NCBI RefSeq assembly: GCF_011516945.1
Contig: NZ_WOTH01000003.1
Span: 111,823-175,822, forward strand
Length of the DNA: 64,000 nucleotides
Direction of reading: 5' to 3'
DNA from: Acetobacter estunensis
GTDB taxonomy: Bacteria > Pseudomonadota > Alphaproteobacteria > Acetobacterales > Acetobacteraceae
Positions within the stretch are counted from its first letter, which is position 1. Each line of letters begins with the position of its first letter. Positions 40,957 through 54,755 of this stretch are shown in pieces. The translations under genes and the position numbers were made by a program. The notes beneath the pieces are model-generated. The model was not told where the DNA came from and did no database searches. It saw only the letters and a list, made by a program, of their open reading frames with translations.

Positions 40957-42261
40957 TCAGGTGTGGATGGTCTCGCCGTGTTCGGCAAGGTCGAGACCTT
41001 CGAGTTCGACGGCAGGATCGACACGCAGGCCCATGGTCTTGTCGAGAATGAAAAGCAGAAGGGCTGTCATCGCCATCGTGTAGACGGCCACAAGAATGGT
41101 GTCCTGACTTTGCACGAGCACCTGCTTCCAGTTGCCGTACAGAAGACCATCCTTGCCTTCGCCGCCGATGGAGGAGGAGGCAAACACGCCTGTCAGCACG
41201 GCACCAAGACCGCCACCGATGCCGTGGATGCCCCACACGTCCAGCGCGTCGTCATAACCGAAGCGGTGCTTGGGCCAGTTGACGGCCCACAGGCAGACCA
41301 GGCCGCCGAGGATACCCATGATCATCGCTCCCATGGGGGTGACGAAACCGCAGCCCGGCGTGATAACGACCAGCCCGGCCAGAGCACCTGAGATTGCGCC
41401 CAGCATGCTGGGTTTGCCATGCAGTTTCCACTCGGCCAGAACCCACGCCACAAGAGCAGAACTTGCCGCGATCTGGCTATTGAGAAGAGCCATGGCCGCT
41501 GTCGCATTCGCGCCGAGGGCGGAACCGCCGTTGAAGCCGAACCAGCCGCCCCAGAGCAGGCAGCCGCCAAGAACGGTAAGCACCATGTTGTGCGGGGCCA
41601 GACTGTTCACGCCGTCGGCCTTGCGGCGTCCCAGCATAATCGCGGCGATCAAGGCGGAGGAACCGCTTGTGACGTGCACGACCAGACCGCCGGCAAAATC
41701 CAGCGCGCCGGTGGAGGCGAGAAAACCGTCCGGTCCCCATGCCATGTGACCGACCGGGCAGTAGATCAGGATGGCCCACAACGCCATGAAGACCATGGCT
41801 GTGGAGAATTTGAAGCGCTCCACGGTGCCACCCAGAACGATGACGGGCGTGATGGCGATGAAGGTCAGTTCGAACATGGCGAACGTCACTTCAGGCAGGT
41901 TTGGAATGGCGGGAAGGAAGGATGTCAGGGTGACGCCGTTCATGAAGGCCTTGTCGAGACTACCGATGAACGGTGTGTTGCCTGTAAAGATCAGGCTGTA
42001 ACCGCAGATGAACCAGATGAGGCTGATGATCGAACCTGCGGTGATTCCCTGCATGCACATGCTCAGCACGTTCTTCTTGCGGATCATGCCGCCGTAGAAC
42101 AGGCAGATTCCCGGAAAAAGCATGAAGAAGACGAAGACGGTGGAGGCGAGAATCCACGCCATGTCACCAGTGTTGAAGGCTGGCTCCGCATCGGCGGCAA
42201 AAGCGGGTGGGACGAGAAGAAAAGAGCAGGACAGGAAGAGCAGGAGGTATCGTAAGGGCAT
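40957..42261 (-). CDS. amt: Ammonium transporter
   Basis: Inner-membrane Amt/MEP/Rh channel of 434 residues. The cleavable leader MPLRYLLLFLSCSFLLVPPAFA is followed by eleven hydrophobic segments. Family motifs include FYGGMIRKKNVLSMCMQ, DFAGGLVVHVTSGSSALIAA (with a pore His) and GGCLLWGGWFGFNGGS. It imports ammonium, and relatives may carry methylammonium. No glnK gene is adjacent. It is downstream of gmaS on the same strand, so uptake may be matched to methylated-amine use; a separate promoter is likely in the 284-base gap. Confidence 0.94.
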   Translation of the reverse strand: MPLRYLLLFLSCSFLLVPPAFAADAEPAFNTGDMAWILASTVFVFFMLFPGICLFYGGMIRKKNVLSMCMQGITAGSIISLIWFICGYSLIFTGNTPFIGSLDKAFMNGVTLTSFLPAIPNLPEVTFAMFELTFIAITPVIVLGGTVERFKFSTAMVFMALWAILIYCPVGHMAWGPDGFLASTGALDFAGGLVVHVTSGSSALIAAIMLGRRKADGVNSLAPHNMVLTVLGGCLLWGGWFGFNGGSALGANATAAMALLNSQIAASSALVAWVLAEWKLHGKPSMLGAISGALAGLVVITPGCGFVTPMGAMIMGILGGLVCLWAVNWPKHRFGYDDALDVWGIHGIGGGLGAVLTGVFASSSIGGEGKDGLLYGNWKQVLVQSQDTILVAVYTMAMTALLLFILDKTMGLRVDPAVELEGLDLAEHGETIHT

Positions 42262-42465
42262 GATTCGTCTGTGATCCTGTATCTGGAAGGGGTGAGACGT
42301 GGTGCCCGTAGGTGGCTCAGCCCCTCCGGGCGCAGTTTCTCCTCGTGGGGGCCTGCATCTGAAGAAGCGCAGGCAACTGGAAAGAACGAACCGCAGATTG
42401 GATGCGGCAGGAGTCCCGCCGGAAAGCGGGATACTGTTTCATCATGCCCATAATATTCCGATATC

Positions 42466-42494
42466 GCAATAAAATGCGCGTACGAATATGTAAA
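42466..42494 (-). promoter_or_regulatory. Candidate promoter of amt
   Basis: On the minus strand TTTACA (42489-42494) and TATTGC (42466-42471) are 17 bases apart, about 200 bases before the amt ATG. The leader between them contains a CCCGCTTTCCGGCGGG-type hairpin. Confidence 0.35.
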
Positions 42495-42545
42495 AAAGAG
42501 GTTCTGGGCACTGATGATGTGAGGCCAATGAAGTAATTTTCGGAA

Positions 42546-53200: not shown

Positions 53201-53294
53201 CTCGGTTCACAACCCACTGGCAGGGGCGGTCATTGCGGCGCGTGTCGTCGATCCCGTGTTTGTCGATCCCAAAGGAGAACGTCTCCATGGCTGA
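50289..53294 (+). CDS. soxA: Sarcosine oxidase-type alpha subunit
   Basis: Large subunit of 1001 residues. An N-terminal ferredoxin-like region (about 25-105, DYTGHPGDTLASALLANG) is followed by an NAD-binding disulfide-reductase-like domain (DVLVVGSGSSG at 175-185, later GRRAVVYTCNDDG) and a C-terminal aminomethyltransferase-like folate domain (about 620-1000). It accepts the methyl group on tetrahydrofolate as 5,10-methylene-THF. Length agrees with family (about 970-1000). It overlaps soxG by eight bases. Confidence 0.94.
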   Translation: MSAAFGQTFRVKSGNGVDVSRTLHFSFDGKDYTGHPGDTLASALLANGVRLFGRSFKYHRPRGLLSAGPEEPNALVELRDGARREPNTRATVAELFDGLIATSQNRWPNLSFDALGMNGMFSSILGAGFYYKTFMWPASFWERVYEPIIRKAAGLGRAADEGDPDLYEKATAFCDVLVVGSGSSGLAAALAAGRAGARVILCEQDSLVGGRLRDEHMALDGKLAWQWAEQARRELEAMPDVSVMTRTCVFGTYDGGTYGAVERVADHVAVPRVGQPRQCLWRIVARECVMAAGAIERPVVFPHNDRPGVMLAGAVRTYINRFGVAPGRRAVVYTCNDDGLRTALDLYRVGVTVAAIVDSRPGGASIAAEVAAKCGARFFPSGAIVDCYGRTGVKAVLVRDAAGKAKSVSCDLVAMSGGWSPNVALTTHKGARPTWHDDLCAFLPFTLPPGMAAAGAAAGVFDTAEGLHDGAMAGQWAAVRCGFEATLPALPEAEPTSYAIHPLFHALKGLAASKKAKAFVDFQNDVTAKDVGLAAREGFVSVEHLKRYTTLGMATDQGKTSNVNALALLAEITERSIPQTGTTLIRPPTQPVAIGALAGAHRGRHFKPTRLPPTHQWAEQQGAVFTANGLWLRAQWFPRAGEKDWLETVSREVRTVREAVGFCDVTTLGKIDIQGPDAAEFLNRVYVNAWLKLAVGRVRYGLMLREDGFAYDDGTTACLGENHYVMTTTTANAGGVMAHLEFCHQWLWPELDVQFISVTDEWAQLAVAGPKSRDVLAKIVDAPFDLSNEAFPYMAAAELTVCGGVKARLFRLSFSGEMAYELAVPARYGDALARRLMEVGAPFGIAPYGTEALGVLRIEKGHPAGPELNGQTTAHDLGMGRLLSTKKDFIGSRMARRPALTDPQRPTLIGIRPVNPMDALVAGSHFLPQGAAPTAETDQGWLSSVAWSPSVGSWIGLGFLTDGPARHGEIISVHNPLAGAVIAARVVDPVFVDPKGERLHG

Positions 53295-53880
53295 TCTGCT
53301 TTCTGCCACCCTACCGGTTGTGTCCGATCCTGTGACGGTTGGTGGTGTCACACTTGAACTGGTGCCACCGACCAGCATTGTCAGCCTCGGTGCATTTGCT
53401 GGCGCAGGTCGTGACGAACTTGTTGGGCGCGTGCGCGCGGAGTTTGGCGTGGATTTGCCAGATGTGTCGCGTGCCGTGCGCTCCAGCTATGGCAACGTCG
53501 CGTTTCTCTGGAACGGACCTACCCAGTGGCTGGTGGTAGGGGAGGACAGCGGTGAACTCTTCTCCCGGCTGCAAAAATGTTGCGGCGATGTTTGCGCGCT
53601 GACATCGCAGGGTGATAGCCGGACAATCCTGAGGCTGTCCGGCATGGGGGCACGGGAAGTCGCAACCCGCTTGCTGCCCATCGACCTGCATGGACAGGTT
53701 TTCTCCACGGATTGTGTGGCATCCACTCTGGCGGGGCACATTCCCGTCATCGTATGGCAGACAGCGCAGACGCCAGCCTATGACTTCCTTGTCTTCCGGA
53801 GCTTTGCCTCCAGCCTGTTTCATGATCTTTCTGTCGCCCTGAACGGCCATACTTTTTCAGAAACGGACCATTACGCATGA
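53287..53880 (+). CDS. soxG: Sarcosine oxidase-type gamma subunit
   Basis: Subunit of 197 residues with a GcvT-like fold, beginning MADLLSATLPVV. It contains FLWNGPTQWLVVGED, GDSRTILRLSGMGAREVATRLLPIDLH and DFLVFRSFASSLFHDL, typical of SoxG. The ATG at 53287 overlaps the end of soxA, and the stop overlaps purU as ATGA. It packs against the folate domain of SoxA. Confidence 0.9.
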   Translation: MADLLSATLPVVSDPVTVGGVTLELVPPTSIVSLGAFAGAGRDELVGRVRAEFGVDLPDVSRAVRSSYGNVAFLWNGPTQWLVVGEDSGELFSRLQKCCGDVCALTSQGDSRTILRLSGMGAREVATRLLPIDLHGQVFSTDCVASTLAGHIPVIVWQTAQTPAYDFLVFRSFASSLFHDLSVALNGHTFSETDHYA

Positions 53881-54755
53881 CGACCCCTTGCCCTGACACC
53901 AAGGGCTATTTCCTCACGCTGAGTTGCCCCAACCGTCCGGGCATCGTTGCCGCCATCAGCCAGACGCTGTTCGATGCTGGGGCGAACATCACCGAGGCGC
54001 AGCAGTTCGATGATACGGGCAGCGGCAGCTTCTTCATGCGGATCATGTTCGACGTCGTGAAGGGCGGGCGTACGGAAGCGGATCTTCGCGGTATTGTAGA
54101 TGGGGTGGCGCGTGAGTTCGGCATGGACTACCGGCTTCATTGCCAATCCTATCGCCCGAAGGTGATGATCCTCGTCTCTAAGTTCGATCATTGCCTTGTG
54201 GATCTGCTTTACCGCTGGCGTATTGGGGAACTGCCGATCGATCCGGTGGGCATTATTGCCAATCATCCTGAGGATACTTACAGGGATGTGGATTTTTACG
54301 GAATCCCGTTCCACTATCTGCCGGTCACGAAGGACACCAAGGCTCAGCAGGAAGCGCGTATTCTCGAACTGGTCGGCGAGAGCCACACGGATTTGGTCGT
54401 GCTGGCGCGCTACATGCAGATACTCTCCAATGAGATGGCGGCCGCTCTTTCTGGGCGTTGCATCAACATTCATCATTCCTTCCTGCCTGGCTTCAAGGGC
54501 GCGCGCCCCTATCATCAGGCATGGAACCGGGGTGTGAAGCTGATCGGTGCGACCGCGCATTATGTAACGCGCGATCTTGATGAGGGGCCGATCATCGAGC
54601 AGGATGTGGAGCGTATTTCGCATGCCGACAGTCCGGAAGATCTTATCCGAAAAGGGCGCGATATCGAGCGACGGGTTCTTTCACGTGCGGTGCGGTATCA
54701 TATCGAAATGCGCACGATCCTTAATGGCAACAAGACAATCGTTTTTACATCCTGA
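53877..54755 (+). CDS. purU: Formyltetrahydrofolate deformylase
   Basis: Enzyme of 292 residues releasing formate from 10-formyl-THF. An N-terminal ACT domain (FLTLSCPNRPGIVAAISQTL, about 9-85) is followed by a formyltransferase domain with the catalytic Asn/His in CINIHHSFLPGFKGARPY and Asp in DLDEGPIIEQDVERI. Last gene of the soxBDAG operon. Its place there closes the C1 cycle, regenerating THF after the oxidase has loaded it. The ATGA overlap fixes the start. Confidence 0.95.
   Translation: MTTPCPDTKGYFLTLSCPNRPGIVAAISQTLFDAGANITEAQQFDDTGSGSFFMRIMFDVVKGGRTEADLRGIVDGVAREFGMDYRLHCQSYRPKVMILVSKFDHCLVDLLYRWRIGELPIDPVGIIANHPEDTYRDVDFYGIPFHYLPVTKDTKAQQEARILELVGESHTDLVVLARYMQILSNEMAAALSGRCINIHHSFLPGFKGARPYHQAWNRGVKLIGATAHYVTRDLDEGPIIEQDVERISHADSPEDLIRKGRDIERRVLSRAVRYHIEMRTILNGNKTIVFTS

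Follow-up and report, generated by a model that had tools for sequence, protein, structure and literature searches.

We analyzed a 64,000-nucleotide stretch (C3:111823-175822; hereafter the window) of an Acetobacter genome of 3.45 Mb in 120 contigs. Its locus at positions 40957-54755 very probably encodes, judging from the sequence, a two-arm N-methylglutamate pathway for methylamine nitrogen, with the arms under separate XRE-cupin and LysR switches. Ten pathway genes and two regulators, all with open reading frames, are arranged there as two divergent arms, just as the original prediction described them. Its guess that the host is an acetic acid bacterium also proved right, as the window GmaS shares 98% identity with that of A. 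estunensis, whose strain AV380 carries the locus, and 89% with that of A. sicerae. In the minus-strand arm, Amt would import methylammonium, GmaS would join it to glutamate in an ATP-dependent step, and MgsABC would convert the resulting gamma-glutamylmethylamide and 2-oxoglutarate into N-methylglutamate and glutamate. In the plus-strand arm, the SoxBDAG-like tetramer (MgdABCD) would oxidize N-methylglutamate to glutamate and pass the methyl carbon to tetrahydrofolate, from which PurU and a FolD encoded outside the window would release formate and free the folate. The N-methylglutamate reading proposed in the original prediction is supported by the GmaS residues, the MgsABC domains, the SoxB clade, and the co-occurrence of the dehydrogenase with mgsC and gmaS. 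The pathway itself is already known from other bacteria; new here are a diverged second set of both arms and a conserved element upstream of each arm.

The synthetase gene gmaS (42546-43865, minus strand) scored 648.5 bits against TIGR03105 (cut-off 469.6). The closest solved structure to its product was RhGmaS of Rhodovulum (7CQL), at 618 bits against 329 for the next best, and 271 of 430 aligned residues were identical. All 21 RhGmaS residues for ATP, glutamate, Mg and methylamine binding and for catalysis, with roles taken from the structure paper (PMC7948447), are conserved in the window protein. Where glutamine synthetase has the ammonia Asp and the Glu-flap Glu, it carries A55 and W307, as RhGmaS does. 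By these residues the window synthetase is classed as a GmaS. Membership in the gamma-glutamylputrescine synthetases (PuuA) failed, as the protein reached 259 bits against the 650 required by NF045547. We also considered whether the minus-strand arm is a spare ammonia assimilation set, in which GlnT would be a glutamine synthetase III, MgsABC would act as a small glutamate synthase, and Amt would be an ammonium porter. The family names would suit this, since NCBI titles TIGR03105 type III glutamate-ammonia ligase (GlnT) and Amt belongs to the ammonium transporter family, but the replaced ammonia-site residues and the fully conserved methylamine site argue against it, as does the RhGmaS Km for ammonium, reported to be about 300-fold above that for methylamine (PMC7948447). 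In addition, a stronger glutamine synthetase match lies on contig C14, and a GOGAT-like large subunit, truncated by the window edge, is found at 26-2341 (994 bits, below the cut-off of 1047). We regard this explanation as very improbable. The original prediction held that it would fall if the synthetase grouped with GlnT, but such grouping does not discriminate, as the PDB entry of RhGmaS itself carries the name type III glutamate-ammonia ligase and a rhizobial glnT lies in a similar locus. Because the names GlnT and GmaS cover one family, a phylogeny of the two was dropped and residues were used in its place. Similarly, the glnT of SAR11 has been described as a putative GmaS (PMC3160333). A GlnT or type III glutamine synthetase label can thus hide methylamine enzymes.

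The other minus-strand pathway genes are amt (40957-42261; TIGR00836, 414 bits, cut-off 343), which codes for a presumed ammonium/methylammonium transporter, and mgsC, mgsB, and mgsA, which code for the putative N-methylglutamate synthase. MgsC (43931-45268) is the FMN-binding subunit resembling glutamate synthase (PF01645, 310 bits), MgsB (45276-45971) is the GXGXG subunit (PF01493, 47.6 bits), and MgsA (45968-46867; PF13522/PF13537) is the amidotransferase subunit, beginning MCGIVG with an N-terminal Cys. The GATase, GXGXG, and Glu_synthase domains thus follow in the order of a three-subunit N-methylglutamate synthase. Adjacent genes overlap by 4 bases in three pairs (mgsA/mgsB, soxD/soxA, and soxG/purU). 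The start codons of MgsC, SoxB, SoxD, and SoxG are our choice. Nine further Acetobacteraceae loci (L005, L006, L011-L016, L146) share the divergent lysR-XRE-mgsABC-gmaS/sox order, so the layout is more than chance. Another locus (L020) also has it, with no soxG found there, and amt adjoins gmaS in only part of the loci with this order.

The plus-strand arm begins with soxB, or mgdA (48726-49985; TIGR01373, 682 bits), for the FAD/FMN subunit of the putative N-methylglutamate dehydrogenase, followed by soxD, or mgdB (49993-50292; TIGR01374, 111.7 bits, below the cut-off of 116.5), soxA, or mgdC (50289-53294; TIGR01372, 1375.9 bits), with a folate-binding GCV_T domain (PF01571, 219 bits), and soxG, or mgdD (53287-53880; TIGR01375, 81.5 bits, below the cut-off of 143.95). 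All four subunits are therefore present; SoxB and SoxA passed the curated NCBIfam cut-offs, as did GmaS, PurU, and Amt. These family models name the enzyme sarcosine oxidase, and the arm might accordingly be a second sarcosine oxidase that supplies folate and PurU with C1 units and has no link to the gmaS arm beyond lying next to it. In four Komagataeibacter genomes (diospyri, swingsii, intermedius, and oboediens; G008-G011) no SoxA-type protein other than the Mgd type reaches E 1e-100, which favors this possibility, as do Mgd-type soxB genes in genomes without gmaS, some of them in a lone LysR-soxBDAG-purU(-folD) arm. We consider it improbable, since the window enzyme does not group with known sarcosine oxidases or with the host's own copy on contig C27, and its soxB tracks mgsC and gmaS across the family, as given below.

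Three SoxA-type proteins above the family cut-off were found in the genome, on C3 (the window), C50, and C27. Adjacent to the C27 sox cluster are genes for a serine ammonia-lyase (above cut-off), a glycine-betaine-monooxygenase-like protein, and a GbdR-like regulator (both below cut-offs), so the C27 enzyme is likely a betaine-route sarcosine oxidase. Against the sarcosine oxidase structures (1VRQ, 2GAG), SoxA scored 610-617 bits for the window and 801-807 bits for C27, and SoxB scored 414-418 and 558-571 bits, respectively. In a maximum-likelihood SoxB tree of 61 rows, some of which are the same gene fetched twice, the window and C50 proteins fell inside a 47-row Mgd-type clade (support 100/99) that includes gmaS-linked enzymes of Methylobacterium, Paracoccaceae, Aminobacter, and Rhizobium together with rows without a linkage check. 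The C27 protein, eight other acetic-acid-bacterial rows, and the two sarcosine oxidase structures formed an 11-row group, which excludes the window SoxB; long branches meet in the tree, and the tool warned that joins of that kind may be false. At 24 positions, the sarcosine oxidase group has a single residue and the 47 rows carry a different one, fixed to at least 97%. One His column, presumably the FMN attachment site, is conserved in all 61 rows. The original prediction had named methylamine or sarcosine as the substrate. The GmaS residues favor methylamine, and sarcosine is less likely because of the separate cluster on C27. Three gmaS-linked rows (L025, L029, and L031) formed a third type. 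These sox-like tetramers (L025:3761-10488, L031:3531-10186, and that of L029) lie directly behind gmaS and are about 36-44% identical to that of the window; no mgsABC was recognized in the stretches examined, and they perhaps serve a different route from gamma-glutamyl amides.

The distribution of these genes was surveyed in 299 Acetobacteraceae genomes of 102 genera, with limits of E 1e-120 or better for gmaS and E 1e-140 for MgsC; soxB was called Mgd-type at 72% or more identity to the window SoxB, a cut of our own, and one partial gene at 78% was counted. The counts treat genomes as independent though they are related. The gene gmaS was found in 34 genomes and 19 genera, including 2 of the 8 genomes of the host's genus, so the earlier remark, which called the capacity unusual if the host is an acetic acid bacterium, is half correct. 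All 26 genomes with mgsC also had gmaS. Mgd-type soxB was present in 45 genomes: in 21 of the 26 with mgsC and gmaS versus 24 of the 273 others (odds ratio 44, Fisher 1.7e-15), and in none of the 8 with gmaS but without mgsC. With a 60% identity cut, the corresponding counts were 21/26 and 43/273 (odds ratio 22, 1.3e-11); in 19 further genomes, none with gmaS, the best soxB was at 60-69% identity and stood outside the tree. Among 16 stretches around Mgd-type soxB, three (L134, L144, and L146) contained both arms. Conversely, XRE-mgsABC-gmaS without an adjacent sox arm was seen in L007, L008, L009, and L017, and the tetramer is encoded elsewhere in those genomes. The arms in relatives may thus be separate or single, mostly each with its own regulator. 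A second MgsC-like protein of 56-57% identity accompanies the ordinary one in two genomes (G158:C6:20146-21399 and G242:C1:419216-420469).

A second copy of both arms was found in the same genome. Contig C67 (9.4 kb) contains gmaS2, mgsC, mgsB, mgsA, an XRE-cupin gene, and the end of a lysR (L004:3890-9391), and C50 contains the other part of a lysR, soxBDAG, purU, and folD (L093:103-7894). Both contigs end at lysR pieces, suggesting that they are neighbors; this second lysR may be interrupted in the cell or only in the assembly. GmaS2 conserves the catalytic residues, with F replacing Y at one ATP-stacking position. In the GmaS tree, 20 Acetobacteraceae rows formed their own group (95/93), with L144, also from this family, outside it. 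The window protein grouped with A. estunensis, A. sicerae, G313, and Ga. azotocaptans (99/92), and GmaS2 with an Acetobacter metagenome-assembled genome and Komagataeibacter (91/88). Given these different positions, either the copies are paralogues of old standing or a relative was the source of one of them, as far as the tree can tell. A pair of genes read by eye as an IS3-like transposase (L004:2451-3580) adjoins gmaS2.

The two regulator genes belong to the minus-strand arm. One codes for a PuuR-like XRE-cupin protein (46975-47640) with HTH_3 and Cupin_2 domains, which reached 50.8 bits in the PuuR model (cut-off 211), and the other for a LysR-type protein (47678-48646) with HTH_1 and LysR_substrate domains. 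Aligned regions upstream of mgsA share a conserved block ending GTTGAC; the window form, GAAANNTTTRTTCTTTNNNGTTGAC (46928-46952, minus strand, located by pattern match), runs into a TTGACA-like hexamer and is a predicted XRE-cupin operator. A genome-wide search allowing up to two mismatches gave one perfect site and one with a single mismatch, each upstream of an mgsA, and the reversed control pattern gave none; of 20 Acetobacteraceae loci, 15 had the 19-base core of the element. An ATAA-TTAT dyad lies between lysR and soxB in all 15 aligned regions, which were cut from 16 sources and include some near-duplicates. Its window form, ATAAGNAAAAWTTAT (48655-48669, plus strand, likewise located by pattern match), is a predicted LysR operator. 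It occurred exactly at two genome sites, both in lysR-soxB regions, where 0.004 would be expected by chance for independent bases at window composition (more in AT-rich spacers). Five additional sites had 1 mismatch, one of them just past the end of gmaS2 (C67:3868-3882), and the control pattern had no sites in the genome. ATAAGNAAAAWTTAT shares bases with the -10 of a promoter-like site that points into lysR (1 such site found versus 0.6 in shuffles), as would be predicted for an autoregulated LysR. Among sox arms apart from gmaS, L147, L148, and L150 had a LysR and the exact element, and L149 and L151 had a looser form, with LysR found in L151 only. The element was also present in L133 and L145, and the L152 stretch ends before this region. 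This gives two exact operator predictions: the mgsA element would be recognized by the XRE-cupin protein and the lysR-soxB element by LysR.

Several observations weigh against the two-arm pathway. Mgd-type soxB occurs without gmaS in 24 of the 299 genomes (43 at the 60% cut), and five genomes with mgsC and gmaS lack it. L131-L133 have the LysR element and a LysR-soxBDAG-purU arm, which includes folD in two cases, with no gmaS or mgsC at the survey limits. The arm must therefore also serve another N-methyl substrate or sarcosine; the open reading frames around a lone sox arm, read for a substrate, gave no clear answer. Work cited in PMC13390433 concerns homarine catabolism using Mgd. The sarcosine oxidase group in the SoxB tree had a support of only 89/79, below the tool's mark for firm support, SoxB proteins at 56-69% identity were left out of the tree, and the Mgd-type clade is named by gmaS linkage, its rows including no biochemically characterized N-methylglutamate dehydrogenase. 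Furthermore, the mgsA element core is missing in five of the 20 loci (L010, L018, L020, L023, and L144), the LysR element is absent from the sox arms L135 and L143, and no folD lies in the window.

The methyl carbon would leave the pathway as formate. The last gene of the plus-strand arm is purU (53877-54755), coding for a formyltetrahydrofolate deformylase (TIGR00655, 337 bits, cut-off 286), and folD follows purU in the second copy and several relatives. This fits a route from methylenetetrahydrofolate (CH2-H4F) through formyltetrahydrofolate to formate. The best genome match to the formate dehydrogenase model TIGR01591 reached 525.7 of the 666 required, with four weaker matches; it was nitrate-reductase-like and adjoins a NirB-like gene. 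For NF005750, which we take to represent the NAD-dependent type, the best match was 155 against 329 required, which is weak evidence, as none of 14 control genomes passed either. PF11927 (DUF3445), presumably a marker of the dimethylamine monooxygenase subunit, had no match in the genome and was positive in 1 of the 14 controls. Since neither formate dehydrogenase model passed, the locus more likely serves to obtain nitrogen than to support growth on the methyl carbon. The nitrogen part of the earlier proposal is thus favored, and its C1 source is unlikely. Use of methylamine as a nitrogen source has been reported for Agrobacterium, a non-methylotroph (via PMC5520151).

We tentatively suggest that the arms are plug-in modules of acetic acid bacteria, although this is less probable than not: an XRE-cupin-switched uptake module (Amt-GmaS-MgsABC) producing N-methylglutamate and a LysR-switched sink (MgdABCD-PurU-FolD) that might also act by itself on N-methyl amino acids from other sources. 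A loose amine choice of GmaS might then strip methylamine and ethylamine, including the amine of theanine, from wine, fruit, and kombucha. The Km of RhGmaS for ethylamine is about twice that for methylamine (PMC7948447). Fruit wines and liqueurs have been reported to contain both amines, and fruit juices methylamine (PMC8834261); theanine as an amine source is speculation. Species with one arm only offer a natural test of modularity. Full-text searches, by which subscription journals were mostly uncovered, yielded no report of the N-methylglutamate pathway in Acetobacter or Acetobacteraceae, nor of Komagataeibacter with a sarcosine oxidase. A methylamine dehydrogenase gene, which does not belong to this pathway, has been reported in a cocoa fermentation metagenome (PMC9671152). 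If our reading is true, the acetic acid bacteria of vinegar and fruit join the methylamine recyclers, in a nitrogen rather than a methylotrophic role.

Other features of the window were also recorded. A gene for an FAD-dependent oxidase (39514-40857) converges on amt and neighbors the gmaS arm in five Acetobacter loci (L005-L009). It was rejected as a substitute dehydrogenase where the sox arm is not adjacent, because the genomes of L007-L009 carry the Mgd-type tetramer elsewhere (truncated at a contig end in one of the three). An integrase-domain protein (11553-12767, below the NCBI cut-off) and a tRNA-Asn (20170-20245), about 7 kb apart, may mark the edge of a mobile element. An ABC transporter set at 24183-27935 resembles a putative vitamin B6 transporter (below NCBI cut-offs).

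The Acetobacter locus resembles the N-methylglutamate pathway of Methylobacterium and marine Roseobacter in its predicted enzyme set (gmaS, mgsABC, and a putative mgdABCD). CH2-H4F is described as the C1 product of this pathway (PMC5017803, PMC13390433), and amtB is drawn in methylated-amine clusters (PMC5520151). The proximity of purU to gmaS is also seen in L054 and L082. Unlike Methylobacterium and the Roseobacters, this Acetobacter has no formate dehydrogenase above cut-off in the two models and carries two diverged copies in its genome. The plus-strand enzyme is similar to the sarcosine oxidase TSOX (1VRQ, 2GAG) in its four subunits, conserved His, and folate domain in the alpha subunit, but its SoxB belongs to a separate clade with the 24 fixed or nearly fixed differences in the beta subunit. 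On plasmid pWSM1274_2 of Rhizobium sp. WSM1274 (L128), a sox(B,D,A,G) arm is likewise divergent from a helix-turn-helix regulator, mgsABC-like genes, glnT, and purU; however, a GlxA-family regulator stands where Acetobacter has LysR, and dimethylamine monooxygenase genes follow, the marker of which (PF11927) was not found in the Acetobacter genome. Regulation also differs from that in Ruegeria pomeroyi, which has the AraC-type TmaR, whereas the Acetobacter locus has a LysR and an XRE-cupin regulator in a divergent two-arm layout.

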